From Candidatus Kuenenia stuttgartensis (lineage in GTDB: Bacteria > Planctomycetota > Planctomycetia > Planctomycetales > Planctomycetaceae), in NCBI GenBank assembly GCA_945906725.1, contig CAMDRI010000017.1:1-50405 (forward strand): a stretch of DNA of 50,405 nt, written 5' to 3'. Shown here one piece after another: positions 5,371-25,655 of the stretch. The position numbers and the translations under genes are program-made. How positions within the stretch are numbered: the stretch's first letter is position 1; every line of letters begins with the position of its first letter. The notes under the pieces were generated by a model. That model was given only the letters and a program-made list of their open reading frames with translations. It made no database searches and was not told the DNA's origin.

Positions 5371-6654
5371 ATGACGAACACACTGACACGCCGCCGGTTC
5401 TTGCACACGTCGCTCGGTTCGGCTGGTCTTGCGCTGAACGGTGATTATTTCGCCCGCCATCTCTTCGCGGACGACAAGCCGCGAGCGATGTTGCCCGTCG
5501 CTGCGGTGGTCACGGTCTATCACAAGAACTCACATGCCGATGTCATCATCGGCAAGATTCTCGAAGGCTGGACGCAGGAGGGGGGACTCGGGCCGGACTT
5601 GAAGCTGGTGTCGATGTTCGTCGATCAAGTCGGTGAGAACGATCTCAGCGGGCCGCTTGCCAAGAAGCATGGGTTCACGATTGCGAAGACGATCGACGAA
5701 GCACTCACGCTTGGAACCGATTCGCTCGCGGTCGCCGGAGTGCTGTCGATCGGCGAGCACGGCACTTATCCGAGCGTACCAGGGACGGACCAAGTCCAAT
5801 ATCCCCGGCGGCGGTTCTTCGACGAGATCGTGGCGACGTTCAAGCGGTGCAAGAAAGTTGTCCCGGTCTTCAGCGATAAACACCTCGCGTATGCCTGGGC
5901 CGACGCCAAGCACATGTTCGACACGGCGAAGGAACTGCGAATCCCGTTCATGGCCGGTTCGTCGGTGCCGGTCAGTTGGCGGAATCCATCAGCGACGATC
6001 CCTATCGGTTCGGAAATCACCGAGGCGATCGCGCTTGGTTATGGTGGCCTCGAATCCTACGGCTTTCATGCGCTCGAAGGGATGCAATGCCTGATGGAGC
6101 GTCGCAAAAGGGGTGAGTCCGGGGTCAAGTCGGTGCAGTCGGTCACGGGCGACGGCATCTGGCAAGCGGAGAAAGAGGGTCGTTGGTCCAAGTCGCTGTT
6201 CGACTCCCTCGTGGAGTTCTCGCCGACTCCGCAAAACGGCAAGCAGCCGCGTCCCAAAGAGATGGCGAAGGACGCCGTCTTCTATCTCATCGAGTACCGC
6301 GATGGCACGAAGGCCACGGTCGCGATGGGGACCGGGTTTTCGCACGAGTTCGCGTGTGCGGTTTCAATTCGTGGAACCGAAAAGCCATTCGCTGTCAATT
6401 TTCTCCTGCAGGACGGAGTCCCATTCGGACATTTTGAGCACCTGCTGCGTGCCGTCGAACACATGATTCACTCCGGCCAACCCGCTTACCCCGTCGAACG
6501 GACGTTGCTGACGACCGGCATTCTCGATGCCGCGCTGCACAGCCTCGCCGAGCAGAACCAACGACTGCAAACCCCGCAACTGGCGGTAACCTACCAACCC
6601 TCCGATTGGTCCTTCCCGAAGGGCCCCCCGCCAGCTCCGCGCTCGGCGTCGTAA
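5371..6654 (+). CDS. Tat-exported protein of unknown function, oxidoreductase-like C-terminus
   Basis: A 427-residue protein. ATG 5371 is preferred because GGAG at 5360-5363 lies 7 nt away; the in-frame ATG at 5365 is too close. Residues 7-9 (T-R-R-R-F-L-H) plus a hydrophobic run form a twin-arginine signal. The mature part begins M-L-P-V-A-A-V-V-T-V-Y-H-K-N-S-H-A-D, with a Rossmann-like alternation. The C-terminal segment L-R-A-V-E-H-M-I-H-S-G-Q-P-A-Y-P-V-E-R-T resembles the end of Gfo/Idh/MocA proteins, but I see no clear G-x-G-x-x-G nucleotide motif or E-K-P catalytic box. It may be a divergent, catalytically changed member exported to the periplasm. It lies among other exported proteins, including a true Gfo/Idh-like protein at 7555. 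Confidence 0.75.
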   Translation: MTNTLTRRRFLHTSLGSAGLALNGDYFARHLFADDKPRAMLPVAAVVTVYHKNSHADVIIGKILEGWTQEGGLGPDLKLVSMFVDQVGENDLSGPLAKKHGFTIAKTIDEALTLGTDSLAVAGVLSIGEHGTYPSVPGTDQVQYPRRRFFDEIVATFKRCKKVVPVFSDKHLAYAWADAKHMFDTAKELRIPFMAGSSVPVSWRNPSATIPIGSEITEAIALGYGGLESYGFHALEGMQCLMERRKRGESGVKSVQSVTGDGIWQAEKEGRWSKSLFDSLVEFSPTPQNGKQPRPKEMAKDAVFYLIEYRDGTKATVAMGTGFSHEFACAVSIRGTEKPFAVNFLLQDGVPFGHFEHLLRAVEHMIHSGQPAYPVERTLLTTGILDAALHSLAEQNQRLQTPQLAVTYQPSDWSFPKGPPPAPRSAS

Positions 6655-12868: not shown

Positions 12869-12896
12869 GCCCGTGCGATGCGGGCGGCTTTTGTTT
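12869..12896 (+). terminator. Probable intrinsic terminator of rmuC
   Basis: GCCCG (12869-12873), a 7-nt loop and CGGGC (12881-12885) are followed by GGCTTTTGTTT. It is 69 nt past the rmuC stop and upstream of the next gene. The stem is only 5 bp, so strength is uncertain. Confidence 0.5.
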
Positions 12897-12918
12897 GATC
12901 ACTTGCCGAGGCAATGAG

Positions 12919-14346
12919 ATGACCCGCTCCACGAGCAGCGAGCCGAAATCGGCGGCGGCGATGTCGCGACGACATGTTCTTCAAGCGGCGGGGTTGAGCG
13001 CATTGCCGCTGGGATTACCGGGGATGGTCGCGGCCGGAGTTGATCCGAAGCGCAGCCTCGGCAAAGGGGCAGCGAAAAAGTCGTGCATCTTCATTCTGCT
13101 GTGTGGTGGTCCGAGCCATCTCGATACTTGGGACTTGAAGCCGGAAGCTCCCGACACGATTCGCGGTCCGTATCAGCCGATCCCGACCAAAGTGCCGGGG
13201 ATGCAGATCAACGAGATGCACACACGGCTGGCGACAATGTCCGACAAGTTCGCACTGATTCGGTCGATGTCACATGTCGGCAACATCAGCAACCACTTCG
13301 ACGCGATGCACCACCTGCTGAGCGGCCAGGCTCAAGCACCGCTGGATGCGCCGTACATCGGATCGATTTTGTCGAAGGCTCGGCCAGATGAGCGGAGCAT
13401 GGCACCGTATGTCTGGTTGATCAAATGCGTCGGCGATCCAGTCTTCTGTGCCGTGAACATCGGTAATGGAGGGCATCTCGGCATGATGCACAGCCCGCTG
13501 TTCGTCGGCTCCGCAACGAATCATCCGGCGATGCCGACGTTCAAAGCCCCCGACGAATTGATTGCAACCGTTCCGGCCGAGCGAATGCTCGAACGCCGAC
13601 GATTACTGGACGGTTTGAATCCGACAACGAGTTCCGTGAACGACCAGCGTGCAACGACCGATTGGCAAGACCTGCACGGCCGCGCGTTCGATCTGACGAG
13701 CGGCTCGGAAGGCCGTGAGCCGTTTGAATTGCAACGCGAGTCGACTGCCACTCGCGAGCGTTACGGCATGCATCCGCTGGGGCAGAATCTGTTGCTTGCA
13801 CGCAGGCTGATCGAGTCGGGCGTCGGCTTCGTCACGGTCAACGGCTGGACCGGTCCGTCACCCAACGGAGGCGGCGGACCTCCTGCCTCAAGCTGGGACA
13901 TGCACGGCGGCGAGATGGGAATGGGTAACGCCTTCGGAAACGGGTCGTACGGCATGGGCTGGTGTTTGCCCTGTCTCGATGAAGCGGTCTCGGCACTGCT
14001 GAGCGATCTCACCGATCGCGGCATGTTGGAGAACACGATGGTGGTTGTCACCGGAGAATTCGGGCGCACACCCAACATCAACCAGAACGGCGCTGCCAAT
14101 CCCGGACGTCAGCACTGGCCTTCTTGCTATTCCACGATCGTCGCCGGCGGTGGCATCCGCGGCGGCCGAGTCTACGGCGAGTCCGACAAGCACGGAGCGT
14201 ACGTCAAAGATCGCCCAGTTCGTCCGCAGGATCTCGGTGCCACGATCTTCCATTCGTTGGGAGTGCCGCTCGATCTGCGACTGGGCAAAGATGGCTTCAC
14301 TCGGCCCCTCTCCACGGGCGAACCGCTCGTTGACCTGTTCAGTTGA
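12919..14346 (+). CDS. DUF1501 family Tat-exported protein (second copy)
   Basis: A 475-residue protein. ATG 12919 has GAGG seven nt upstream. M-S-R-R-H-V-L-Q-A-A-G-L near residues 15-26 is the twin-arginine signal. DUF1501 landmarks: F-I-L-L-C-G-G-P-S-H-L-D-T-W-D-L-K-P, H-N-near M-H-S-P-L-F-V-G-S, V-V-T-G-E-F-G-R-T-P-N, and Q-H-W-P-S-C-Y-S. It is shifted in sequence from the copy at 3837, so this is an old duplication and not recent. The role is unknown as for the other copy; periplasmic. It is the last chromosomal gene before the integrated element, and its stop is 251 nt left of the attachment core. Confidence 0.9.
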   Translation: MTRSTSSEPKSAAAMSRRHVLQAAGLSALPLGLPGMVAAGVDPKRSLGKGAAKKSCIFILLCGGPSHLDTWDLKPEAPDTIRGPYQPIPTKVPGMQINEMHTRLATMSDKFALIRSMSHVGNISNHFDAMHHLLSGQAQAPLDAPYIGSILSKARPDERSMAPYVWLIKCVGDPVFCAVNIGNGGHLGMMHSPLFVGSATNHPAMPTFKAPDELIATVPAERMLERRRLLDGLNPTTSSVNDQRATTDWQDLHGRAFDLTSGSEGREPFELQRESTATRERYGMHPLGQNLLLARRLIESGVGFVTVNGWTGPSPNGGGGPPASSWDMHGGEMGMGNAFGNGSYGMGWCLPCLDEAVSALLSDLTDRGMLENTMVVVTGEFGRTPNINQNGAANPGRQHWPSCYSTIVAGGGIRGGRVYGESDKHGAYVKDRPVRPQDLGATIFHSLGVPLDLRLGKDGFTRPLSTGEPLVDLFS

Positions 14347-14414: not shown

Positions 14415-14488
14415 ACCCCCCGGCCGGAGTCGAACCGGCGACCTAACGTTTAGGAAACCACAGTTCTATGACGGGAGTCCCACTGTTC
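14415..14488 (-). pseudogene. Degenerate tRNA-Arg(CCU)-like sequence, probable old attachment remnant
   Basis: The minus strand keeps a perfect T arm (GCCGG TTCGACT CCGGC), a 3' acceptor strand CGGGGGG and an anticodon loop TTCCTAA, at exactly the spacing seen in the intact tRNA-Arg(CCU) at 25582-25655 (constant offset of 11,167 nt). However, the anticodon stem (GTGGT/ACGTT) does not pair, the D arm is only half recognisable (ATAGA), and no 5' acceptor strand complements CGGGGGG. I read it as a tRNA 3' portion joined to unrelated DNA, as left by an earlier integration event, about 110 nt left of the present attachment core. Confidence 0.55.
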
Positions 14489-14596: not shown

Positions 14597-14842
14597 GAGT
14601 ACCCCCGACAGGGGCTGAACAATAGCGAGATTTCTGCGAAGGAATCGCAGGTTGATCGTCACGACGACGCATTTTCCGACGCATTCTCTGACTCTCGGCT
14701 CGTGAAGTTGATTGAAGTCTGGTCGGCGCTCTCGGATGACGTGAGGGACGCGATTCGAGCATTAGCCGATGCGTCGGCAAGTTCTGACTGCGGGAGCGCG
14801 GTTCGCTCCGGCCGGGCCGCTTCCGGTGATTCGGCCGGCTGA
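14597..14842 (+). pseudogene. Orphan C-terminal exon-like fragment of the element integrase (intC)
   Basis: Plus frame with no start codon, immediately after a stop at 14594-14596 and running through the attachment core to TGA 14840-14842. Beyond the core it encodes 76 residues, beginning G-L-N-N-S-E-I-S-A-K, with an amphipathic helical stretch S-R-L-V-K-L-I-E-V-W-S-A-L-S-D-D-V-R. It then reads D-A-I-R-A-L-A-D-A-S and ends in an Ala/Ser/Gly-rich tail. The core is translated in the same frame (Y-P-R-Q) as in the integrase at 24322-25608. Joining the element ends gives one uninterrupted gene of about 500 codons. I recall L-x-x-x-x-x-x-W-x-x-L-x-x-x-x-R-x-x-I tails on planctomycete integrases, which supports this, but a search is required. 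Confidence 0.7.
14598..14612 (+). repeat. attL core of the element
   Basis: AGTACCCCCGACAGG, identical to 25580-25594. Flanks diverge immediately on both sides (GAG before, GGCTGAAC after; the right copy has ATC before and AGTCGAAC after). Confidence 0.85.
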
Positions 14843-14905
14843 ACGGGGCGATTCTGGCCATGCCGGTCGCTGGTGAATATCAAGGCACTTTACGGAGATA
14901 CGACG

Positions 14906-15331
14906 ATGGATGAGCCGTCAACAAACGGTGGCAACGGCAGCCGCGACGCTCGCGGGCGATTTGTGAAGGGGAACGCCGGGGGGCCGGGGAATCCGAACAT
15001 CCAGCATGTTGCAAAGCTGCGCGATGGGTTCCGCTCTGCCTTGGGCGTTTCTGACGTTCGTAAAATATGCAGGAAGCTCGTTGCTATGGCCCTTCAAGGC
15101 AACCTCATGGCTGTTCGCGAGGTCTTGGATCGCAGCATCGGCAAGTGCCCGACAGCGGCCGACGATGGCGATGGCGACAGCCAGAAGCTCCTGCCGATTT
15201 TTGAGGTCATCGTGAGTAATCGGGACGAAGCACTGCAATTCAGCGCGATTCGCGAACAACTGCGACGGCAAGTCCGTCATGCTGGCCTGCGTGATGCGTC
15301 AGTCGGTTTGCCAGCGCCGGCTGATGATTGA
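14906..15331 (+). CDS. DUF5681-type small protein of the element
   Basis: A 141-residue protein. ATG 14906 has GGAG eight nt upstream and is preferred over the TTG-type start at 14873. The N-terminal block D-A-R-G-R-F-V-K-G-N-A-G-G-P-G-N-P is the signature of DUF5681, found in phage and mobile-element proteins. A helical segment follows (V-R-K-I-C-R-K-L-V-A-M-A-L-Q-G-N-L-M-A-V-R-E-V-L-D-R). Homologues are sometimes near terminase genes, and a DNA-packaging or small-terminase-like role has been suggested for related architecture; no large terminase is present here. First gene inside the left end. Confidence 0.75.
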   Translation: MDEPSTNGGNGSRDARGRFVKGNAGGPGNPNIQHVAKLRDGFRSALGVSDVRKICRKLVAMALQGNLMAVREVLDRSIGKCPTAADDGDGDSQKLLPIFEVIVSNRDEALQFSAIREQLRRQVRHAGLRDASVGLPAPADD

Positions 15332-15493
15332 AACAGAGTGTCCGCTGCCATAAGCCTTGGAATGAACGGCATACTTATCCTCAGCGGGCAACCGCCGTGA
15401 GAGTCTGGGAAAAAAAGTGACGAAGAACGACTTCGCGCTTTTGGATTTGGTGCGAAGGCCATCGCGCGCACAGAACTGGGCTGTATATGTCAA

Positions 15494-15538
15494 TTGACGC
15501 ACTTTGATCGGCTGGCGTTATGGTCTCCCAAACAAAGG
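15494..15538 (+). promoter_or_regulatory. Possible promoter and short dyad upstream of the XRE regulator
   Basis: TTGACG (15494-15499) and TATGGT (15519-15524) match the -35 and -10 consensus at 5/6 and 4/6 but with a 19-bp spacer. Directly after, CTCC, eight nt and GGAG form a short dyad that could be an operator. It lies about 70 nt before the XRE start. Weak, position-based evidence only. Confidence 0.3.
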
Positions 15539-15596
15539 AGCCACTCACGCAAACATTTGACCGGGGCGACACGTCGCACTCAGGAGGACCACGGAA

Positions 15597-15818
15597 ATGA
15601 GCGATCTTGCCAACAGGCTGCGAAAAGCCATCATCGACAGCGGCCTGACGCATTACGCCATCGGCAAGCTGTCAGGCGTGGACACCGCCGTCATCGACCG
15701 ATTCGTGAGCGGCGAACGGGATATCCGTCTCGAAACGGCGGGACGAATCGCAGAGCCACTAGGTTACAAGCTGGCGGCCAACAAATCGGCAAGCTCTCGC
15801 CCTTCTCGGTGCGTTTGA
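15597..15818 (+). CDS. XRE-family helix-turn-helix regulator, 3' end possibly altered
   Basis: A 73-residue protein. AGGAGG (15582-15587) nine nt before ATG 15597. The helix-turn-helix is clear: A-N-R-L-R-K-A-I-I-D-S-G-L-T-H-Y-A-I, then G-V-D-T-A-V-I-D-R-F-V-S-G-E-R-D-I-R, then T-A-G-R-I-A-E-P-L-G. This fits the small planctomycete XRE proteins that end soon after the L-G-L-x-L strand. Here the last 13 residues (N-K-S-A-S-S-R-P-S-R-C-V) look unrelated, and the DNA they occupy overlaps a minus-strand methylase remnant. The original end may have been lost at a recombination junction near 15785-15800. A likely repressor of element genes. Confidence 0.75.
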   Translation: MSDLANRLRKAIIDSGLTHYAIGKLSGVDTAVIDRFVSGERDIRLETAGRIAEPLGYKLAANKSASSRPSRCV

Positions 15819-15966
15819 CGACCGAGCCAAGCGGCGGATTCGTCAGAATCAAGTCGAACTTTCCTTCCGCAAGTTCTGGTTTCTTCGCTTGGATGCGTTG
15901 CAGGAAGTCCAACGCATCGTGGCCGAGTTGCCGCTTGTAAGCGTTGGTGATTGAATGCACTGCACG
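15796..15966 (-). pseudogene. Internal fragment of an N-6 adenine DNA methylase (HsdM-like)
   Basis: The minus frame over these positions encodes about 57 residues: D-A-L-D-F-L-Q-R-I-Q-A-K-K-P-E-L and then G-K-F-D-L-I-L-T-N-P-P-L-G-S. F-D-(L/I)-I-x-x-N-P-P-F-G is motif IV of type I restriction N6-adenine methylases; here Phe has become Leu. Both sides read into unrelated sequence (zinc-ribbon leader on one side, the XRE 3' end on the other), with no start or stop of its own. It is a relic of a restriction-modification gene caught between two insertions or deletions. Too short to say which subfamily. Confidence 0.55.
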
Positions 15967-15989
15967 GTGGCCCGCCGTGGCGACGGTTG

Positions 15990-16143
15990 GCGGGGGTTGC
16001 GTGAGCGGCCGTGGATCGGCACTCCGTCGTTTTGAGGGGGGACATTTCAATGATTGAGTTCTCGTGCCCGAAGTGTGGTCGTCCAATCCGTGTTCCAGAC
16101 GCTGCTGCCGGACAATCTGGACAATGCAAGAATTGTGGAACCT
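15990..16143 (+). repeat. Leader plus zinc-ribbon repeat, copy 1
   Basis: About 154 nt covering 60 nt of leader and the first 31 codons of the gene at 16050. It is nearly identical (roughly a dozen differences by eye) to 17509-17661. Similarity falls off sharply after the G-T-S codons. Confidence 0.8.
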
Positions 16144-17441
16144 CAATGACAGCTCCGAGGCCAGAGAACTTCGGTGTCCAGCCAATACCTCCAACGGAAG
16201 TCAAAGTCGAGGTACACCCGCAACCGGCGAAGGCAAGCAGTCTCGGTATCGGGTCCATCATTCTCGGAATCCTCGCATTGAGTGTCGCATGGGTGCCGTG
16301 GTTCGGTTTATACGCCTCACCGTTGGGTGTCTTGGGATTGATTCTCGGAGTGATTGGATTTGTCGTTGCGATGTGGCGAAGTGGGTCGGGGATTGGATTC
16401 GCAATTGCAGGTTCGGCGATTTCGGCATTGGCGTTGTTCATTGGATATTCAGTGAACCGCGACATTGTGATTGCTGGATATGAACAAGCACAGGCGGCCA
16501 TCCGGCGCAGTCAGCAGCGCGGCGACGAAGAAGACTTACAGCAAAATGAACTTGGTGCGGCAAACGATGAAATCGCTGTCGCAAACGCGGACCCGTGGGA
16601 CAACGCAACAACCGTTGCCGAAGACGACACAGTTCGTGTCGAAGTGGTCAGCGCGGAAATCGGAAGGGTGAAGTCGCGGTCGTTCGGCGAGGATCATTTA
16701 ACTGAAGACAACTGGCTCAAGATTGTCGTCAGAATCCAAAACCGAACTGAGTCAAAAAAGTTTAGATACATGAGTTGGTGTGATAGCGGTGATCTTAGAA
16801 ATCGCGCCAAACTCACGGACGACTTGGATAATAAGTACAGTATCTCGTATGAGCGAGACATTGTTGGTCGAACGACAATTGAGTCCGTCTATCCAGATAA
16901 GACCATCACGGACCTACTCGTTTTCGAGATTCCCGTTGACAAAGCGAAGTTCTTGAAGCTCGCACTTCCAAAAAATAAATGTGAAGCCGGTGACGGCGAG
17001 TTCTTGCTCAAGATTCCGATGCGGCTACTGGCTCGCGAGTCGATTTCGGAAAAGAAACTCCCGGCCATTCCCGACAACGGCCACAAGCAAGAAGCAAAGA
17101 AGAATCAGGTTGTCATTGATGTCGATGGCGCGGAACCGCTCGACGAAGTGCTGACGATTCTTGTTGCGGATAGGAGCTACGCCGTTTGGCGAATGACTCC
17201 CGAAGTGACCGGCTACTTCCTCGCCGAGTTTGACGAACTCGTGCGACTCGCTCGCAACGCGAAGCCGAACGACGATGGAGTTCGCGTGCGCATTCTGCGC
17301 AGCGAATCCGCAAAAGTCTCTGCTTGGCAAAAACTACAAACAGAACTTGTCCAAGCCGGCATCCCCGCCGAGGCGATTGTGTTGACGAAGGATTTGGTGG
17401 TGATGAGCGTCAGAAAGGGGACCAGCATGAGGGGCGAATGA
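16050..17441 (+). CDS. Zinc-ribbon membrane protein with DUF4352-like and ExbD-like parts
   Basis: A 463-residue protein. ATG 16050 lies 9 nt after a G-rich GAGGGGGG. Residues 5-29 form a zinc ribbon (C-P-K-C ... C-K-N-C). Then come a linker, two or three hydrophobic segments (about 60-130) of the DUF4190 type (L-G-I-G-S-I-I-L-G-I-L-A and G-S-G-I-G-F-A-I-A-G), and an Asp/Glu-rich linker. A beta-sandwich like DUF4352 follows (V-R-V-E-V-V-S-A-E-I-G ... N-W-L-K-I-V-V-R-I-Q-N-R-T). The last 110 residues resemble an ExbD-type fold (V-V-I-D-V-D-G-A-E-P-L ... V-R-V-R-I-L-R). Probably an inner-membrane sensor or accessory protein; no function is known to me. Paralogue of the next gene and cargo of the element. 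Confidence 0.8.
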   Translation: MIEFSCPKCGRPIRVPDAAAGQSGQCKNCGTSMTAPRPENFGVQPIPPTEVKVEVHPQPAKASSLGIGSIILGILALSVAWVPWFGLYASPLGVLGLILGVIGFVVAMWRSGSGIGFAIAGSAISALALFIGYSVNRDIVIAGYEQAQAAIRRSQQRGDEEDLQQNELGAANDEIAVANADPWDNATTVAEDDTVRVEVVSAEIGRVKSRSFGEDHLTEDNWLKIVVRIQNRTESKKFRYMSWCDSGDLRNRAKLTDDLDNKYSISYERDIVGRTTIESVYPDKTITDLLVFEIPVDKAKFLKLALPKNKCEAGDGEFLLKIPMRLLARESISEKKLPAIPDNGHKQEAKKNQVVIDVDGAEPLDEVLTILVADRSYAVWRMTPEVTGYFLAEFDELVRLARNAKPNDDGVRVRILRSESAKVSAWQKLQTELVQAGIPAEAIVLTKDLVVMSVRKGTSMRGE

Positions 17442-17508
17442 GCGTTGAAAAGGGAGCCACCGTTGAGCAGCGATCGGAACCGAGAGGTCTGGTGATGCAC
17501 GCTCAGGG

Positions 17509-17661
17509 GCGGGGGTTGCGTGGGCGGTCGTGGATCGGCACTCAGTCGTTTTGAGGGGAACAATTCAATGATTGAGTTCTGGTGCCCGAAGTGTGGTCTT
17601 CCAATCCATGTTCCAGACGCTGCTGCCGGACAATCTGGACAATGCAAGAATTGTGGAACAT
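17509..17661 (+). repeat. Leader plus zinc-ribbon repeat, copy 2
   Basis: Second copy of the 15990-16143 unit; includes the leader GCGGGGGTTGC and the ribosome-binding region GAGGGGAAC before ATG 17568. Differences cluster in the leader; the codons for P-D-A-A-A-G-Q-S-G-Q-C-K-N-C-G-T-S are almost unchanged. Confidence 0.8.
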
Positions 17662-18548
17662 CACAAGTTGTTCCCACTCCCAAGGAATTCGATCAATTGG
17701 TCGAACTGATCGAGGCGTCGGCTGTCGTTCCCACTTCCGGCAATTTGCCTGCTCTTGCTCCTGATTGGTGCGAATATCCTGTCTTCGCTCCGCCCCCGCC
17801 TACCTTCCCGCCAATGGTTCGGCCAGTTGCCGGTGAACCACCTCAACAACCAACACACGTTGTCACCATCAATGTTGCTCGTGAATCAGGCGCGGCTCAT
17901 AGTTTGGGGATTGCGTCAATGGTTTTGGGAATCGTCGCGCTGGTCGTGATTTGGATTCCCTTGGTCGGCTTGATGGTGGCTCCGTTGGGAGCGTTGGGAT
18001 TGTTGCTCGGCGTCGTTGGATCTTTCGTCGCGTGCCGCCGGAACGGATCGGGAATCGGCTATTCGATCGCTGGTGGAGCGATTTCGGCACTCGCGTTGTT
18101 AGTTGGATTCTCAGTCAACTATGTCCTGTTCTCTGCGGAAAAAGAATTCGTGAACAGATTCAACGATTTGCAAAACGGCAAGAGCGACCGAGAGCAGGAA
18201 GAAGCAAGGGGGCGAGTCGAAAAAGACATGCGTGATCAACACGAGAAGGCCAGAGCCGCTGCGCGTGCCAAGTACGAGGCGTTTCGCAAGATCATACCGC
18301 CGGCAGGGGCCACTGGAGCTGCGGTCTATGACAGTTTCCCGGAAGCAGATCGTGCTCAACTTATCCAAGATTGGAAGAATGAAGACGTCGCAATAAAGCA
18401 GGCCATTGAATTCCACTTAACGAAACTGCGAAAGATGAAGGAAGGGGCGGCCGGGAGGACTCAGCAGGCAAAGGAACTCGCGAAGTACCGAACCGGACTG
18501 GCCCAAAACACGAAGAACAACCCCCCGTACATCAAAAAAGTCGATTGA
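17568..18548 (+). CDS. Zinc-ribbon, DUF4190-like membrane protein
   Basis: A 326-residue protein. ATG 17568 follows GAGGGG by 9 nt. Residues 5-29 are the same zinc ribbon as in the preceding gene; a Pro-rich linker (A-P-P-P-P-T-F-P-P) follows. DUF4190-like hydrophobic segments lie around 110-185 (G-I-A-S-M-V-L-G-I-V-A-L-V, G-S-G-I-G-Y-S-I-A-G-G-A). The C-terminal 140 residues are charged and helical (coiled coil likely) with K-Y-E-A-F-R-K-I-I-P-P. It lacks the DUF4352/ExbD-like parts of the first paralogue. Membrane topology suggests a cytoplasmic zinc ribbon and soluble tail. The function is unknown. The tandem arrangement argues for duplication inside the element. Confidence 0.8.
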   Translation: MIEFWCPKCGLPIHVPDAAAGQSGQCKNCGTSQVVPTPKEFDQLVELIEASAVVPTSGNLPALAPDWCEYPVFAPPPPTFPPMVRPVAGEPPQQPTHVVTINVARESGAAHSLGIASMVLGIVALVVIWIPLVGLMVAPLGALGLLLGVVGSFVACRRNGSGIGYSIAGGAISALALLVGFSVNYVLFSAEKEFVNRFNDLQNGKSDREQEEARGRVEKDMRDQHEKARAAARAKYEAFRKIIPPAGATGAAVYDSFPEADRAQLIQDWKNEDVAIKQAIEFHLTKLRKMKEGAAGRTQQAKELAKYRTGLAQNTKNNPPYIKKVD

Positions 18549-18594
18549 CCCTGCGAGACCATGAGTGAATCAACCATCGGGATATACTGCTGAC

Positions 18595-18675
18595 TCACTG
18601 ATTGAGACAAAAACGCGGCTAGGCTGATCCCCGAACGGCCGGAAGTCCCTCCGACCCCGCCGCGTTTCTTTTTTA
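18595..18675 (+). ncRNA. Candidate small structured RNA ending in a terminator
   Basis: A -10-like TATACT at 18583-18588 precedes a non-coding stretch. AAACGCGGC (18611-18619) pairs perfectly with GCCGCGTTT (18659-18667), closing a 39-nt interior, and CTTTTTT follows. The interior can form GGCT/GGCC and CGGA/TCCG hairpins, so a three-way junction is possible. It may be an independent RNA of about 80 nt, a leader attenuator for the gene at 18705, or only an elaborate terminator for 17568-18548. I cannot match it to a named RNA family. Confidence 0.5.
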
Positions 18676-18704
18676 GAAGGGGCACCGCGCGAGGGACCGT
18701 GGCG

Positions 18705-19343
18705 ATGAGCAATAGCGACACAGACAATCTATCTCCGAAATTTCGCTGGGAAGACATCACTATCGCTGGCGGAAAAGTCAGCGGCATCACCACAAAAGTT
18801 TCTTGGGAGCGGCTGCCTGGCGCTAATGCAAATGAATTGCGGCGTGAAGCAAAATTTCTTCGTGACCGCGCTGTCCGGCGCGATGACGCGACAGCCGCAC
18901 ACGACATTCAACAGGCGGAGATGTACGAACATGACGCCGAGGAGTTAGAGCGTCAACAAGGGTTGTTGCCTGAGTCGGACGTGTTGGCTTGTAGGCCGCC
19001 GGTCAACGATTCCGCATTCGATGCCGTCAAGACGTCGCCAGGTGAGAAGGTGCAGAGTGGAAGCCAAGCCGGCGCGATTTCAGACGACGGTGGTGACGGC
19101 GATCCGATCGAAGACGCTCTGACCGGGCAAAAGTTGGCGCTCTATCGCTATTTGAAGCCACGGCGACGTCGCACACCGTTCGACATTCTGGCGAAGCTAA
19201 AATGCTGGCGTGTTGACCAACCGACCGACGATGCGATCGTGAAAGCATTGAAGCGGCTTCGGGACATTCTCAACAAGATTCCGAACTGTTCAATATCCCT
19301 CGTGATTGAGGGCAACAACCGGCGGACCTACTTGGACAGATGA
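18705..19343 (+). CDS. Element protein of unknown function (212 residues)
   Basis: Starts at ATG 18705 (GAGGGA about 9 nt upstream); an in-frame GTG at 18699 is an alternative. The N-terminal half is polar and helical, with E-L-R-R-E-A-K-F-L-R-D-R-A and A-E-M-Y-E-H-D-A-E-E-L-E. The C-terminal 80 residues (A-L-Y-R-Y-L-K-P-R-R-R-R-T-P-F-D-I-L-A-K, then A-I-V-K-A-L-K-R-L-R-D-I-L-N-K) look like a winged helix-turn-helix, similar in plan to domains I know from planctomycete mobile elements. A DNA-binding role is inferred. It heads the gene run leading to the replication protein. Confidence 0.65.
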   Translation: MSNSDTDNLSPKFRWEDITIAGGKVSGITTKVSWERLPGANANELRREAKFLRDRAVRRDDATAAHDIQQAEMYEHDAEELERQQGLLPESDVLACRPPVNDSAFDAVKTSPGEKVQSGSQAGAISDDGGDGDPIEDALTGQKLALYRYLKPRRRRTPFDILAKLKCWRVDQPTDDAIVKALKRLRDILNKIPNCSISLVIEGNNRRTYLDR

Positions 19344-19444
19344 AGGGACAAAGAAAGGGACAATGTTGTCCCCTGGTTTGTCCGAACCCTCTTGTACCGT
19401 GCTGACACCCTGCAACATCGCAGGGCGGACAAGAGGAAAAAGAG

Positions 19445-19642
19445 ATGACCGAGCCAGTTCTGAATCGGTTGCCAACGCTCCAAGATGTCGAGCGGGCAAT
19501 CTCTCTCAATGCCCGTGACGCGGCGTTGCTGCGGTCGCTCCGCGATGCTCTGCGGAAGCGCAAGAAGATCGAAGATGTTGGCCAACGACTCCGCGAACGC
19601 GCGGAATGTGTCGTCCGTGAAAGCAAGGTGATGCCATGCTGA
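19445..19642 (+). CDS. Small helical element protein (65 residues)
   Basis: ATG 19445 is preceded by GAGGAAAAAGAG. The protein is mostly one charged helix (D-A-A-L-L-R-S-L-R-D-A-L-R-K-R-K-K-I-E-D-V-G). Its stop overlaps the next ATG by 7 nt, so translation is probably coupled. I recognise this kind of small gene from planctomycete elements but know no function. Confidence 0.6.
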   Translation: MTEPVLNRLPTLQDVERAISLNARDAALLRSLRDALRKRKKIEDVGQRLRERAECVVRESKVMPC

Positions 19643-19971
19643 TTTTGGCACCACCGGCCGAACGGATTGTTGTCATCGTCGTTGACACTCGGCGAAAAAC
19701 GAACACGGAGATGGAGCCGGATATCGCCTTGTTGCCAGTTCTTGGAATTGAAGCACTGCTCACAGAAGAGCAAATCATCATTCACGAGATGCTGGTCTAT
19801 TCCGAAAGGTGGGCCGATGGCTTGGTGGTCGTCGGCCAGTTGCGGCAGAAACCATACCTTCGCATCCGCCCGGTTGTCTGTGCGTGGCCGCCAAGCGAAG
19901 ACGAATCGCGACTGGCACCGTTCATCGCCGAGTTGGTTGAGCAACAGAAACGTGAGGTGTCCCGTGCGTGA
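19636..19971 (+). CDS. Element protein of unknown function (111 residues)
   Basis: ATG 19636 overlaps the end of the previous gene and its own end overlaps the next start, a tightly coupled trio. Beta/alpha composition: I-V-V-I-V-V-D-T-R-R, A-L-L-T-E-E-Q-I-I-I-H-E, R-L-A-P-F-I-A-E-L-V-E-Q-Q-K. No domain recognised. The position before the DNA-binding protein and the primase-helicase suggests a replication or regulation accessory. Confidence 0.6.
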   Translation: MLILAPPAERIVVIVVDTRRKTNTEMEPDIALLPVLGIEALLTEEQIIIHEMLVYSERWADGLVVVGQLRQKPYLRIRPVVCAWPPSEDESRLAPFIAELVEQQKREVSRA

Positions 19972-20191
19972 CGCCTCATTTCTTTCTGCCGCCGACCCGA
20001 TCACGGTGAAGGCTGAGAACGCAATCGAGCCGCTTGTTGTGTCTCTCGCGACGGCGGCGCGCCTCTTAGGGTGCTCGGACAGACATTTGAGAACTCATCT
20101 TTTTGAAATTCCTCACATCCGAATCGGCGGCCGGCTGCTGTTCCGAGTCGAATCGCTCCGTGAGTGGCTCGCGGAGCGCGAATCACAATGA
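19964..20191 (+). CDS. Excisionase-like helix-turn-helix protein (75 residues)
   Basis: Starts with GTG at 19964, decided by GAGG (19954-19957) six nt upstream; a longer frame has no good start. The body P-L-V-V-S-L-A-T-A-A-R-L-L-G-C-S-D-R-H-L followed by P-H-I-R-I-G-G-R-L-L-F-R and L-R-E-W-L-A-E-R is the classic MerR-like/excisionase 'helix-turn-helix domain' plan. Overlaps both neighbours (ATGA junction with the next gene at 20188). It may act as the element's excision factor or as a regulator; it is not beside the integrase. Confidence 0.75.
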   Translation: MRDASFLSAADPITVKAENAIEPLVVSLATAARLLGCSDRHLRTHLFEIPHIRIGGRLLFRVESLREWLAERESQ

Positions 20192-23100
20192 GCGCCGGCT
20201 GGGTGAGGGCATCCAAGTCTCGGCCGTGCCGGCTGTGTGGCGGGCCAGACAACTGCGAAGAGATTCGCGGGACACAACAAGGCGAGGTTGGTTGGAATGT
20301 TTACTGTGGTCGAGTTTCGGACGGCGCGATTCGCCAGAACGATGGTGGACAGTGGTTGCACTTCGTGCGCGACGATGCCGTCATTGCGGTTCCGCGTCCG
20401 ATGCCCGAACGAAAGCCAGTCACGTCGCCGAAACCGAACTCGACCTATTGGGCGGGCGTTGTCCAATTCTGTGAAGAAATTGGACGCGACCGATTGCCTG
20501 AGTTGGCAACCGTATTGGGTGTCTCGATTGATTCACTGCGGCGGCTGCGAGTTGGTTTCAGCCGCAAGGATGACGCTTGGACGTTTCCAGAACGAAACGC
20601 CGCTGGCGAGTTCATTGGCGTCAATCGACGATTTCAAACCGGAGATAAGCAGCGAGCGGCTGGCGCTTCCAGTGGACTCACCTTTGCCGATGACTGGATC
20701 GTCGGCGATGGTCCGATCTTTCTTCCTGAAGGTGGCTCGGATGCTGCGGCGGGCCTCACGATGGGACTCAACATGGTTGGCCGTCCGTCGAATGTGGGTG
20801 GCGTACCGATGCTTGCCGAGTTGCTCGCACACATTCCGCCGGAGCGGGCCGTCATCGTCATCGGTGAGCGCGACCGCAAGCCACACGACTCGCTCAAGGA
20901 AGACGCTCGCAAGCGGCATTCGCCGACGTGCGAAGGATGTTCGATTTGCTTTCCGGGATGGTTCGGAGCGACGCACAGCGCGAAGCAACTCGCCGAGAAG
21001 TTGGCTCGGCCGGTGGCGTGGGCGTTTCCGCCGGACGACGCGAAGGATTTGCGAGACTGGTTTCGAGCACATTGCCACGACGCGACAGCGGACGAACTCG
21101 GACGGCGGCTTGTTGCTGGATTGAAACTCACAACGGTCGAACCGCCGCGCGTCGAGATCATCGTGCCGGACGAACGAACGGCCATCACGTTGAATGAAGC
21201 GAGGGAGCAAATGCACTCTGCCAAGACACAAAGCATCGGCCAACCGGGAATCTATTTGGATCGCTCTCCGACCGGGGCCGGAAAAAGCCACAGCGACATC
21301 GCGGCCGTGCGAAAAAACTTGTCGTCAGGCGGACGGTCGCAGATCGTTCTGCCCACTCACAAAAATTGCCGTGAGGCGGAAGCGGAGTTTGAATGCGCCG
21401 GCATCAACGCCGTGGAGTATCCGCCACGACTGACGAAGGACACCAAGGACTATCGAGCCAACTGCTGGAATCTGCTCGCCGATGAAGTTGAAGCCGCCGG
21501 CTTGCCGGTCGCGCGAACAGTGTGCTGGCAATGCGAGCACAAACATCGTTGCTCCGATCCAGGTCTGTTGGGATTCCCCGAAGGATACCTTGGCCAAATC
21601 AACGCGGCGGAGATAGCGGCTGTGAGTCTGGCAACTGGCGCACGCGCGGCGTGGAAAGGGTTGATGTCTTTGTCTGACGGACGCTCGTTTGTGAGCGTTC
21701 ACGAACAAGCCATCGGCATCCTGCGGCCGACTTCCACTTGTTCGGAATCTGACGTGATGATGGCTCGCCAAGTCTTGGATCGGCTGCTCAATGATCCGAA
21801 GTCACTCGACTGGTTTGGAGAGGCGACGCGAAAGGACGAAGACGGAAAAATTGTTCCGAACGAAAAGAGACAACAACGCCGCGATGCGCTTTACGAGTTC
21901 ACAAAACACTTGGCATCCGTCGCCGATGAAGTCGCCGAGTCGGTTGTCGCAGCGAAACAAACTTGCGAATTCGCCCCAAAGGCGGCAATGCCCAAGTCGT
22001 CTGGCATCGAATGGTTGGTCTATTCGGCGGGAAAACGTGACAAGGTTCAGTTTGACGGGCCGGCTTGGAAGGTGCTGTTGGCGCTTGCGTCCGGTGAGAC
22101 GCATTCTGCTGCGATCATCGTTGGCGAATCGCGCGAAGCTGGCGGGGTTCCGATCATACGGCGAAACGTCTTGGCGGTTTGGCACAATCCGCCACCGTTC
22201 GACTCGGCCGCTGTTTGGTTCAATGACGCAACAGCCTCGAAAGAACGACTTGCGTTTGTGCTGGGAACCAAAGTCACCGACAAAACGCCAGAGGGCCGAA
22301 TCGAACTCGTTCAACGGGCCGTTCAGATTCCGAAAGACATCACGCGGAAAACGTCGGGGAAGACTGTCGCCGGGTTGCTGCGCGGACTGCTGACGGCCGA
22401 ATCCAGCTTTCTCCGCGTGGGTGTGATTTGTCATCGTCCGCATGTTGAAGCGGTCAAAAGTCTGGGCGGCGAGTTTCAACAGCGCATTGCGAAGGTGTCG
22501 TACTTTGGGAGCGGCGACGAAAGAGCGTCCAACGAATGGCACCGCGACTGCGACGCTCTCATTGTGTTGGGGACGCCTCGATTGCCGCCCCAAGCGGTCG
22601 AATCATTCTTGATCCAATGCGGCGACGTGGCGGCGGCGACACGGCAACCTGTATGGGAAACCTACAGGTGGCGAGGCGTCACTGAATCCGGCAAGTTGAG
22701 GGACGTTGAGGCTCGCGGGTATCGCGATGAAGTCTGGCGAGCGGCCGATCGGGAACTGGTACGAGCCGAGCTGATTCAAGCAATTGGACGCGGGCGTGGG
22801 ATTCTGGATGACGGCATCCCGGTCATCGTGCTGAGCACTGAGGAATGCGGGCTGAGGCTGGCGGACGCTGACCAGAACTCGTCACCGTTGAGCGAAACGG
22901 ACGAAAGGCTGCTGGCTGCATTGGACACTCTCTCGCTATCGCCGCCTTTTGGAACGCCGCCAAACGCTAAGAAAGATATCTTAGGGAAAACCGGCGTTCC
23001 AAAAGGCGGCGATGCGATGCCGTTCGTCCCGGTGTCCGAGCTGGCGACTCTGATGAAGAAATCAGACAGTTGGCTGCGGGAATTGCTTGGCCGGTTGGAA

Positions 23101-23220
23101 GGACGCGGGTTGGTCGAACGGGACGGGCAGCGTGGCGGCTGGCGTCGGACGGCTCGGATCGTGCGATTCGATCAAACGACCGGCAAAGACGATTCTTGCT
23201 TGGAGAACCTCTCGATTTGA
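20188..23220 (+). CDS. TOPRIM primase-helicase replication protein of the element
   Basis: A 1010-residue protein; ATG 20188 overlaps the preceding TGA (ATGA). Order of parts: an N-terminal zinc-finger-like region (C14-x2-C17-x5-C23 ... C40); a TOPRIM-like stretch with L-P-E-G-G-S-D (181-185) and V-I-G-E-R-D-R; Walker A S-P-T-G-A-G-K-S (360-367); a cluster C426 ... C446-x2-C449-x5-C455 that could hold zinc or an Fe-S cluster as in XPD/DinG helicases; the arginine motif Q-A-I-G-R-G-R-G (864-871); and a C-terminal winged helix (W-L-R-E-L-L-G-R-L-E-G-R-G-L-V-E-R). Primer synthesis plus unwinding in one chain implies autonomous replication of the circle. Residues 917-942 are encoded by a perfect inverted repeat. 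No family name beyond this is certain. Confidence 0.75.
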   Translation: MSAGWVRASKSRPCRLCGGPDNCEEIRGTQQGEVGWNVYCGRVSDGAIRQNDGGQWLHFVRDDAVIAVPRPMPERKPVTSPKPNSTYWAGVVQFCEEIGRDRLPELATVLGVSIDSLRRLRVGFSRKDDAWTFPERNAAGEFIGVNRRFQTGDKQRAAGASSGLTFADDWIVGDGPIFLPEGGSDAAAGLTMGLNMVGRPSNVGGVPMLAELLAHIPPERAVIVIGERDRKPHDSLKEDARKRHSPTCEGCSICFPGWFGATHSAKQLAEKLARPVAWAFPPDDAKDLRDWFRAHCHDATADELGRRLVAGLKLTTVEPPRVEIIVPDERTAITLNEAREQMHSAKTQSIGQPGIYLDRSPTGAGKSHSDIAAVRKNLSSGGRSQIVLPTHKNCREAEAEFECAGINAVEYPPRLTKDTKDYRANCWNLLADEVEAAGLPVARTVCWQCEHKHRCSDPGLLGFPEGYLGQINAAEIAAVSLATGARAAWKGLMSLSDGRSFVSVHEQAIGILRPTSTCSESDVMMARQVLDRLLNDPKSLDWFGEATRKDEDGKIVPNEKRQQRRDALYEFTKHLASVADEVAESVVAAKQTCEFAPKAAMPKSSGIEWLVYSAGKRDKVQFDGPAWKVLLALASGETHSAAIIVGESREAGGVPIIRRNVLAVWHNPPPFDSAAVWFNDATASKERLAFVLGTKVTDKTPEGRIELVQRAVQIPKDITRKTSGKTVAGLLRGLLTAESSFLRVGVICHRPHVEAVKSLGGEFQQRIAKVSYFGSGDERASNEWHRDCDALIVLGTPRLPPQAVESFLIQCGDVAAATRQPVWETYRWRGVTESGKLRDVEARGYRDEVWRAADRELVRAELIQAIGRGRGILDDGIPVIVLSTEECGLRLADADQNSSPLSETDERLLAALDTLSLSPPFGTPPNAKKDILGKTGVPKGGDAMPFVPVSELATLMKKSDSWLRELLGRLEGRGLVERDGQRGGWRRTARIVRFDQTTGKDDSCLENLSI
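22938..23013. repeat. Perfect 22-bp inverted repeat inside the replication gene
   Basis: Left arm 22938-22959 (starts ATCGCCGCC, ends ACGCCG) is the exact reverse complement of right arm 22992-23013. In the 32-nt centre, CTAAGA (22967-22972) pairs with TCTTAG (22979-22984), around the palindrome AAGATATCTT. It lies between the helicase motifs and the winged helix, in a linker. Possible roles are a replication origin/hairpin, a MITE-like in-frame insertion, or a transcription pause. Confidence 0.85.
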
Positions 23221-23258
23221 ACGCGGGGACGGAGATTCAGACTTTCAAGGGGAGCGGA

Positions 23259-23501
23259 ATGAAGAGGAATGCCAAACAGGTGAACTCGCCTGACGACAAG
23301 CTGGCCTTGGACGCATGGGCGCGGGCACTGGTTGAGTTGGGTGAGGGCATTGCTGCTGCACTGGTTCGATCAATTCAACGGCTGGCAGACGATCGGCGCT
23401 TGCCGGCTGACGACCGGGCCTTTGCAGAGTCTCAAATTGCAGCACTTCGGAGAGCAGTTCGGGCGGCCGGCTCAAAACGGAAATCTGGCAGGAAAACTTG
23501 A
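23259..23501 (+). CDS. Small element protein (80 residues)
   Basis: ATG 23259 with GGAG 4 nt upstream. Charged helical protein: K-L-A-L-D-A-W-A-R-A-L-V-E-L-G-E-G, R-S-I-Q-R-L-A-D-D-R-R-L and a Lys/Arg tail G-S-K-R-K-S-G-R-K-T. The basic tail could bind nucleic acid; no family known. It follows the replication gene by 38 nt, probably in the same transcript. Confidence 0.6.
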   Translation: MKRNAKQVNSPDDKLALDAWARALVELGEGIAAALVRSIQRLADDRRLPADDRAFAESQIAALRRAVRAAGSKRKSGRKT

Positions 23502-23526
23502 CACATTCTCTTGAATGGTCGATGAT
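23498..23526 (+). promoter_or_regulatory. Probable promoter of the recombinase genes
   Basis: A consensus -35 TTGACA at 23498-23503, 17 bp, then GATGAT (4/6 to TATAAT) at 23521-23526. It overlaps the stop codon of the 80-residue gene and lies 66 nt before the serine recombinase start, so the recombinase pair could be expressed independently of replication. Confidence 0.45.
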
Positions 23527-23591
23527 GAGTTTGTATCTTACGCCTGTTGGGTGCCGATTCAGAGCTGGGAACCGATTCAAAGGGCAAAATC

Positions 23592-24281
23592 ATGGCAAAG
23601 ACAGTCATCGGATATGTGCGAGTTTCGACCAAGGGACAGGGAGCATCGGGACTCGGCTTGGAAGCCCAGCAAGCGGCCATCGAAACCTACGTCACGCAAA
23701 ACGATGCCAAGGTGCTCCGGCTGTTCGTGGAGATTGAATCGGGGAGAAAGTCGAATCGTCCACAGTTGGCCGCTGCTCTTGCGCACGCCAAGCGGAGTAA
23801 GGCGGCGCTGATCGTCGCGAAACTCGACCGCTTGAGCCGCAACGTGGCGTTCCTGTCAGCCTTGATGGAAGCAAAGGTTGATTTTGTCGCCTGCGACAAC
23901 CCGACTGCAAACAAATTGACGATTCATATTCTTGCTGCCGTTGCGGAAGACGAAGCCCAACGTATCAGCGAACGCACGAAAGCCGCCTTAGCCGCTTACA
24001 AGGCTCGTGGCGGCAAACTCGGTGCTGCACGAAGGGAGTGCCGCAACAACCTGACGCTTGAAGCTCGCCAACGTGGAGCCAAGGCCGCTGGCGAAGCGGT
24101 TCGCAGCAATGCGGACGCCGCCTACTCCGATTTGGAGCCGCTCTTCCAAGATTTTCAATCACGCAACCTGACGCAACGGGACATCGCGGCTGAACTCAAC
24201 CAACTTGGCCACACAACCCGACGCGGCAAGCCTTGGAATCAAGTCCAAGTCGGCCGAGTGCTCCAACGCCTGCAAAGCTAA
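23592..24281 (+). CDS. Serine recombinase (resolvase/invertase family)
   Basis: A 229-residue protein starting at ATG 23592 with AAAGGG 8 nt upstream. The catalytic domain is complete: G-Y-V-R-V-S-T-K-G-Q with nucleophile Ser12 and Arg10; K-L-D-R-L-S-R-N (Asp79, Arg80, Arg83); and the E-helix region A-A-V-A-E-D-E-A-Q-R-I-S-E-R-T-K-A-A-L. The C-terminal part ends in a recombinase helix-turn-helix (N-L-T-Q-R-D-I-A-A-E-L-N-Q-L-G-H-T-T-R-R-G-K-P-W). Size matches small resolvases, not the large integrases. A role in dimer resolution or in excision alongside the tyrosine integrase is inferred from position 41 nt upstream of it. Confidence 0.92.
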   Translation: MAKTVIGYVRVSTKGQGASGLGLEAQQAAIETYVTQNDAKVLRLFVEIESGRKSNRPQLAAALAHAKRSKAALIVAKLDRLSRNVAFLSALMEAKVDFVACDNPTANKLTIHILAAVAEDEAQRISERTKAALAAYKARGGKLGAARRECRNNLTLEARQRGAKAAGEAVRSNADAAYSDLEPLFQDFQSRNLTQRDIAAELNQLGHTTRRGKPWNQVQVGRVLQRLQS

Positions 24282-24321
24282 TCGTCACGAACCCAAGCGA
24301 ACAGAATCAGAAAGCCCAACA

Positions 24322-25608
24322 ATGGCCAGCATCAGCACAGACGCAAACGGCAACCGCAAGATTCAATTCACGCACCTGCGGAAGAGGCGGTCGGTTTACG
24401 TCGGCAACTTGAAGATGAAGGCAACGGAAACGATCGCTCGCAAGATCGAAGCATTGATTGAGGCGAAGTTCTCGCGATGCGCGCTTGATCCCGAAGTTGC
24501 CAAGTGGGTCGGAGACATCTCGGACGAATTGGCTGGCAAACTTGTCGCCGTGGGACTGATCGCTTCGCGCGAAAAACGCCAAGAGGATGCGACGAAGCTC
24601 GGCGAGTTCATCGACGCCTATCTAGCCAGTCGAACGGACATCAAGCCGCGAACTCGGATCAATTTCATGCAGGTCCGCCGTGATCTGGTCGCTCGATTCG
24701 GCGAAGACAAACCGCTCTGCGATGTGACTCTCGGTGATGCCGATGAATGGCGACGCTGGTTACTCTCCCGTGAAAAGAACAAACTCGGAGACAACACCGT
24801 CCGCCGTCACTGCGGCCGGGCCAAGCAACTATTCCGCGCGGCACTCCGCAAACGGCTGATCGCCGAGAACCCATTCGGCGACATGAAAGGTTGCTCGGTC
24901 CAAGCCAACAAGGCGCGGGAGTTCTTTGTCAGCCGCGACGTGGCCGCTCAAGTGCTCGCCACGTGTCCCGACCTAGAGTGGCGGCTGATCTTCGCCCTGG
25001 CTCGATTTGGCGGCCTACGAACGCCCTCAGAGACGTTGTTGCTCCGCTGGGGCGACATTGATTGGGAGCGGGGCCGAATGACGGTCACAAGCCCGAAGAC
25101 GGAGCATCACGAGGGCAAGGGGTCGCGTGTCGTCCCGATCTTCCCCGAACTCCGACCGCATTTGGACGAGGCGTACTTTCAAGATTCAGATTCCCCGCGA
25201 ACCGAATTCGTGATTGCTCGCCGTCGCGACGGCAACGTCAACTGGCGAACTCAACTGGAACGGATCATCCACAAGGCCGGCTTGGTTCCGTGGCCGAAAC
25301 TGTTCCAAAATCTCCGCAGCACTCGCGAGACCGAATTGACCGAGACGTTTCCGCTCCACGTCGTGACAACATGGTTGGGCAACAGCCAACTGATCGCAGC
25401 CAAGCATTACTTGCAGGTCACTGACGAGCACTTCGCCAAGGCGACGCAGAATCCGACGCAGCGAGCAACGGAAATCGCCGACGAAACGGGAAACTATGAC
25501 AAACGGCCTCTCCGTGAAAACGAAGTGCCCCGGAGTTTCCGGGGCTTTCCTCTAGCTGCCGATACATGCACAAAAAATCAGTACCCCCGACAGGAGTCGA
25601 ACCTGTGA
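24322..25608 (+). CDS. int: Tyrosine integrase whose 3' end crosses the attachment core
   Basis: A 428-residue protein; ATG 24322 (MASISTDANG) is chosen by similarity in plan to planctomycete integrases, and no strong ribosome binding site is visible. A DNA-binding N-terminal part lies at 1-90, a core-binding SAM-like domain at about 92-190, and the catalytic domain from 200. Active-site residues: Arg233 (F-G-G-L-R-T-P), Lys259 (T-S-P-K-T), Arg332 in Q-N-L-R with Gln329 where His is usual, Asn354 in W-L-G-N-S where His/Trp is usual, and nucleophile Tyr363 in A-K-H-Y-L. Residues 421-424 (Y-P-R-Q) are encoded by the att core; the final E-S-N-L and the stop come from the antisense strand of the host tRNA. 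In the circular form the frame would continue into 14614-14842, giving about 500 residues. Confidence 0.92.
   Translation: MASISTDANGNRKIQFTHLRKRRSVYVGNLKMKATETIARKIEALIEAKFSRCALDPEVAKWVGDISDELAGKLVAVGLIASREKRQEDATKLGEFIDAYLASRTDIKPRTRINFMQVRRDLVARFGEDKPLCDVTLGDADEWRRWLLSREKNKLGDNTVRRHCGRAKQLFRAALRKRLIAENPFGDMKGCSVQANKAREFFVSRDVAAQVLATCPDLEWRLIFALARFGGLRTPSETLLLRWGDIDWERGRMTVTSPKTEHHEGKGSRVVPIFPELRPHLDEAYFQDSDSPRTEFVIARRRDGNVNWRTQLERIIHKAGLVPWPKLFQNLRSTRETELTETFPLHVVTTWLGNSQLIAAKHYLQVTDEHFAKATQNPTQRATEIADETGNYDKRPLRENEVPRSFRGFPLAADTCTKNQYPRQESNL
25580..25594 (+). repeat. attR core of the element, in the tRNA 3' end and the integrase 3' end
   Basis: AGTACCCCCGACAGG, identical to 14598-14612. 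It overlaps the 3' acceptor strand and part of the T stem of tRNA-Arg on the minus strand, and codons 420-425 of the integrase on the plus strand. Confidence 0.85.
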
Positions 25609-25655
25609 CATCAGCTTTAGGAAAGCTGCGCTCTATCCATCTGAGCTACGGGGGC
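25582..25655 (-). tRNA. tRNA-Arg(CCU)
   Basis: On the minus strand: acceptor GCCCCCG/CGGGGGT with one terminal G-U pair; D arm GCTC...GAGC; anticodon stem CAGCT/AGCTG with loop TTCCTAA, anticodon CCT at 34-36; a 5-nt variable loop; T stem ACAGG/CCTGT with loop TTCGACT; and discriminator A. CCA is not encoded. The gene is intact, its 3' end being supplied by the element's att core. It is transcribed against the integrase gene, which it overlaps by 27 nt. Confidence 0.96.

Follow-up and report, generated by a model that had tools for sequence, protein, structure and literature searches.

A tyrosine integrase family of Planctomycetota with a probable attachment site inside its gene and a conserved tail exchanged on integration

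Results

An element integrated at a tRNA-Arg gene

The window analysed here (the whole stretch of 50,405 nucleotides from Candidatus Kuenenia stuttgartensis) contains a tyrosine integrase gene at 24322..25608 (+) that was defined by ORF analysis and Pfam and encodes a protein of 428 aa. The protein matches Phage_integrase (PF00589, 6e-10) and a SAM-like domain, and R233, K259, R332 and Y363, which correspond to the catalytic R, K, R and Y of tyrosine recombinases, are invariant in 11 relatives. Its C terminus reads Y-P-R-Q-E-S-N-L, with the stop codon located inside a host tRNA-Arg(CCT) gene on the opposite strand (25581..25655, −). A 15-bp core, AGTACCCCCGACAGG, is found at 25580..25594 (+, attR), where it forms the 3' end of this tRNA, and again at 14598..14612 (+, attL), and both copies are in the identical reading frame of the integrase gene. 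At attL the frame comprises 80 codons from 14600 and ends at TGA 14840-14842; the 76 codons past Y-P-R-Q (14613..14842, +) form an orphan tail with no start of its own. Joining the two ends on paper gives a single gene of 500 codons. The preliminary description, which had been made from the window alone, gave the same integrase, cores and tail in the same frames and a joined gene of about 500 codons, and it was correct on all of these points.

The element defined by the two cores (14598-25594) is about 11.0 kb (10,982 bp). Its targeting of a tRNA 3' end and the displaced fragment present at the opposite end of the element are typical of tyrosine integrases, and the tRNA-Arg(CCT) gene, with its 3' end now supplied by the element, is the putative attB target. 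Two other genomes bear on this assignment. In G010 a host gene matching window positions 12895-14346 has an intact tRNA-Arg(CCT) immediately after it, which we read as the unoccupied target on that side. In G004 the same host gene is followed by an attL core and a different tail, which we read as a related element at the corresponding site. From these sequence comparisons and those below we conclude that the window very probably contains an element integrated at the 3' end of tRNA-Arg(CCT), with its complete attP within its own tyrosine integrase gene and a C-terminal hairpin stranded by integration.

Several further features were observed at this locus. A 3' fragment of tRNA-Arg(CCT), running from the anticodon loop (TTTCCTAAA) outward, is located at 14417-14459 (−), 138 bp left of attL. 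Its sequence is not that of the tRNA at 25581, and it is probably the displaced half from an older integration into the same gene, with the anticodon loop serving as core. The window core is read in the Y-P-R-Q frame, matching other Arg-targeting tails. At 25526-25547 the window has ENEVPRSFRGFP where same-genus integrases read ENEKAPEFPGLS, a frame change located at the hairpin described below. The element also encodes a candidate excisionase with a C-terminal HTH_17/excisionase-family domain (19667..20191, +), a serine recombinase (resolvase) upstream of the integrase (23547..24281, +) and, at 20164-23220, a 1018-aa protein with an N-terminal cysteine cluster. The latter had no match in Pfam or NCBIfam, and its position and cysteine cluster suggest a replication protein.

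The split gene is widespread in Planctomycetota

Taken alone, one open frame of 76 codons would be weak evidence in GC-rich DNA, and an open frame following an unrelated 15-bp repeat could in principle have arisen by chance. With the joined protein as query, 11 of the 12 same-genus genomes gave matches, and homologues of the tail, located away from integrases, were likewise found in 11 of the 12. Eight other same-genus elements on single contigs have the tail upstream on the same strand, with both core copies in frame; when joined, the gene would have 481-541 codons in the seven for which this was computed, and the eighth (L048) has a 14-bp core. Both parts with the core in frame were found in 16 elements, the window counted, and the other 15 have cores of 13-28 bp and a tail located upstream on the same strand. 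These 15 elements, together with relatives in which the gene is naturally contiguous (see below), bear out the earlier claim that the gene spans attP and exchanges a 76-residue tail for E-S-N-L, and they rule out a chance open frame, to which we give practically no weight.

The same-genus integrases terminate within tRNAs for Arg, Lys, Glu, Leu, Gln, Val and SeC. The 80 best chromosomal loci from GTDB genomes, nearly all of them labelled as Planctomycetota and two of them cut off, were also compared. In 67 of these 80 best relatives the integrase ends antisense within a tRNA gene, 18 isoacceptor types being represented, and the median length of coding sequence inside the tRNA is 38 nt. The arrangement is thus the rule in this group, contrary to the initial view that such a planctomycete element would be unusual. 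Wherever the flank of a phylum-wide locus contained the second core copy, 48-73 open codons were present behind it, and a similar helix follows the second core in most of L123 (the same place as L058), L129, L137, L145, L155, L159, L175 and L198. On an approximate tree, the target tRNA label has changed at least 48 times. The gene was absent from the named phages and plasmids in INPHARED and PLSDB.

Three more distant tyrosine integrases in the genome of the window itself (L252, L254 and L257 on contigs C206, C25 and C50), which fall outside the window integrase family, end antisense within tRNA-Arg(TCG), tRNA-Lys(TTT) and tRNA-Pro(TGG), respectively, so the habit extends beyond this family. 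At another locus, L050 (G003:C74), the C-terminal part of an integrase, the core and the tail are contiguous in one frame, with a PIN-domain-like frame replacing the N-terminal part of the integrase and a second tail located ~700 bp upstream. This locus likely represents remnants of tandem elements.

Naturally contiguous genes

Integrase, core and tail form one ORF, with repeats on both sides, in nine relatives, comprising eight IMG/VR viral contigs and a single chromosomal contig (L196). The free state of the viral contigs was deduced from the absence of a tRNA junction. In five of the nine, 14-21 bp at the position of the core match the 3' end of a tRNA. The repeat scores of the nine are 14-21, each above the maximum of its own shuffles (9-12), with the exception of L196 (11 versus 10). 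The best pair consists of L210 (free) and L213 (integrated at tRNA-Ser), which are 82% identical over the first 1299 bases; the identity stops at the final base of GGGATTCGAACC, beyond which the tail follows in L210 and the tRNA-Ser in L213. Judged from this alignment, the two are the attP and attR forms of nearly one gene. Two divergent relatives, L217 and L218, stop shortly past the core and ahead of the P' repeat, indicating that the tail is dispensable in some lineages.

Doubled repeats and a hairpin near the core

The best direct repeat shared between the two sides of the 16 paired elements is a doubled motif with half-sites ∼11-12 bp apart, mostly similar to GCGACGCAGAATCCGACGCA. One copy falls in integrase codons, 78-154 bp ahead of the core, and the other in tail codons, 41-80 bp beyond the core. 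The repeat sequence matches inside each element and varies from element to element, such that the repeat-pair score averages 18.4 for true pairs versus 9.5 for mismatched pairs, and a score of at least 12 is reached by 13 of 16 true pairs versus 14% of mismatched pairs. In the window, the doubled repeat CGACGCAGAATCCGACGCA at 25442..25460 (+; −138 to −120 from the core) is the probable P arm and is matched to CGACGCATTTTCCGACGCA at 14665..14683 (+; +53 to +71), the probable P' arm. With an ungapped score of only 10, this pair is among the weaker ones; its doubled form and position fit. We infer that the doubled repeats are integrase arm sites.

A terminator-like hairpin, GCCCCGGAAACTCCGGGGC, is located at 25527..25545 (−) in the window, antisense to the linker codons of the integrase. 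Strong hairpins within 110 bp beyond the tRNA 3' end occur at half of 68 loci versus 7% of shuffles, and at these loci they are T-richer on the tRNA side; the T run of the window hairpin is poorer. A terminator of the integrase transcript was considered and rejected, since the T-rich side on average faces the opposite way. The orientation towards the tRNA makes a tRNA terminator the better reading, and the hairpin is probably a replacement terminator for the tRNA transcript. Near attL, Rfam gave only sub-threshold matches.

The tail as a protein domain

A Pfam search assigned the tail to no family. It has 33 homologues, so the similar tail that the preliminary description required of homologous integrases does exist. 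Across the conserved helical part of these tails (SRLVKLIEVWSALSDDVRDAIRALADAS, 14693..14776, +, in the window) there are no stops in frame 0, whereas 31 and 19 of the tails have stops in the other two frames. The tail pN/pS is 0.60 in frame 0 versus 1.08 and 1.12 in the other frames, third codon positions are the most variable, and the helix has a median pairwise dN/dS of 0.51 and the linker one of 0.86. The tail is thus under selection as protein, and this selection is moderate in strength.

AlphaFold2 modelling of a naturally contiguous relative (L206; mean pLDDT 85) predicted three domains, the N-terminal one three-stranded with a helix, the next a helical core-binding domain and the last catalytic. 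Residues 385-459 are disordered in the model, and 458-474/477-492 form a confident hairpin. The counterpart of the window helical part is modelled as this helical hairpin at pLDDT ∼92. The order of the predicted parts indicates that the att DNA would coincide with the disordered linker and that integration would remove the hairpin. Among solved structures, the nearest folds are those of Tn1549 Int, XerA and lambda Int, and the overall fold of the model is shared with Tn1549 Int and lambda Int. To our knowledge, a C-terminal extension spanning attP is absent from the Tn1549 and lambda integrases.

An alternative to a protein role is that attP lies in the integrase gene for compactness only, the tail being tolerated read-through over P'-arm DNA. 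The fixed spacing of the P' repeat in tail DNA, the relatives that stop ahead of this repeat and a linker dN/dS near 1 are all consistent with such read-through, and for the tail-less lineages L217 and L218 it is possible. However, the helical part sits 3' of the repeats and keeps L..L(I/V)..W..L across diverged elements, a pN/pS of 0.60 is seen solely in frame 0 with 33 of 33 tails stop-free, and the hairpin is predicted to fold confidently. For the family as a whole we therefore regard compactness alone as an unlikely explanation, and the tail, to judge from its conservation, is a coding part of the protein.

Discussion

Integration in this family very probably splits the integrase gene within an attP, and in archaeal type I integrases, too, attP lies within the gene, integration splits it and tRNAs are the targets (PMC8371274). 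By analogy with these suicidal SSV-type enzymes, the integrated window enzyme could be dead, its gene having inactivated itself. The two systems share attP in the integrase gene, the split on integration and tRNA targets; however, the SSV-type split parts the N-terminal portion from the catalytic domain and so inactivates the enzyme, whereas the window integrase, in which the catalytic domain is still joined to the N-terminal part, loses a post-catalytic tail only. The split point is ∼60 residues past Tyr363 and the attR form retains every catalytic residue, and in the myxophage Mx8 the altered IntP/IntX enzyme was reported not to be inactive (PMC6070905). Self-inactivation is accordingly very unlikely, and SSV-type inactivation was rejected on the ground that the split falls behind the catalytic domain.

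The nearest precedent is therefore not the archaeal SSV system named in the preliminary description but the bacterial Mx8 IntP/IntX (PMC6070905). The comparison uses a 2018 review (PMC6070905) and the Mx8 record AF396866. In Mx8 IntP/IntX, and in Mx9 Int, attP is within the integrase coding sequence and integration gives a new C terminus; in the window, too, the attP core is in the int frame with the catalytic part upstream. In the Mx8 Int frame a tail of >100 residues follows a tRNA-like S-T-G-L-E-P-V stretch, the same plan as in the window family. Mx8 int (AF396866, L249) also resembles the window family in having a repeat, GTGACAGCG, within the coding sequence at 6370, 6381 and 6582; two copies 11 bp apart precede the tRNA-like core and a third follows it. 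BLASTP detected no similarity between Mx8 Int and the window integrase (E about 3), and homology was thus not established between them. The window integrase may work like Mx8 Int by analogy, and we do not place it in the Mx8 family. The precedent comes from a myxophage group, whereas the family described here is Planctomycetota-wide and uses at least 18 kinds of tRNA; the conserved hairpin, the paired doubled repeats and the probable antisense tRNA terminator are described for the Planctomycetota family.

Other systems share parts of this arrangement. Islander allows for integrases that extend across attP (PMC4383910). The helper-embedded satellites known as HE-PICIs carry a doubled co-oriented motif at a fixed distance on either side of the crossover, and these copies were put forward as possible arm sites (PMC10111431). 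These motifs resemble the window-family repeats in position and doubling, but they have other target genes, and a location in integrase coding sequence is not reported for them (PMC10111431). Within its limits, the open literature that was searched yielded no account of tail-swapping integrases in Planctomycetota.

We propose that the free circle would encode a 500-aa enzyme in which arm-binding, core-binding and catalytic domains precede a long disordered linker, with a helical hairpin at the C terminus. The linker codons would carry the att DNA, such that the P arm, core and P' arm are all within the integrase gene. On core exchange the catalytic enzyme would stay at attR, ending in four tRNA-antisense residues, and the hairpin would be stranded at attL as a silent frame without a start. 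Excision would restore the full gene, the predicted junction (25594/14613) reading TACCCCCGACAGGGGCTGAAC in frame. The hairpin would be expected to act in the free form, most simply by promoting integration through an oligomer or a host contact, and its loss may stabilise the integrated state, or may reserve the enzyme that remains for excision together with the HTH_17 excisionase-like protein at 19667-20191. In the simplest model, full-length integrase favours integration and tail-less integrase is kept for excision. A coupling of integrase behaviour to integration state, including a role as an integration-state switch, is plausible, and selection on the tail lends indirect support to it. The fuller proposal is put forward tentatively, as a possibility with somewhat less than even chances. 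It would make this a protein switch in a large bacterial family, in which the full-length enzyme with its hairpin is produced only from the free element and drives integration, and the hairpin-less enzyme is produced only when integrated and is reserved for excision. One coding region would then combine the switch with the att arms and a tRNA terminator, all of them kept through dozens of tRNA target changes.

Given the Mx8 IntP/IntX precedent and the occurrence across Planctomycetota, the window integrase is not a planctomycete oddity and represents the phylum-wide form of an arrangement already known from Myxococcus phages. The bacterial case for altered integrase tails had rested on the myxophages Mx8 and Mx9. 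In the present family, which extends across Planctomycetota, the arrangement is the usual one; its members use at least 18 tRNA targets, and the approximate tree shows at least 48 target changes. For annotation, a warning follows that the chromosomal C termini of these integrases are host tRNA translated antisense. The family offers one enzyme in many natural versions, both free and integrated, along with a defined, conserved tail domain, and gives a direct test of whether an integrase protein reads out its integration state.
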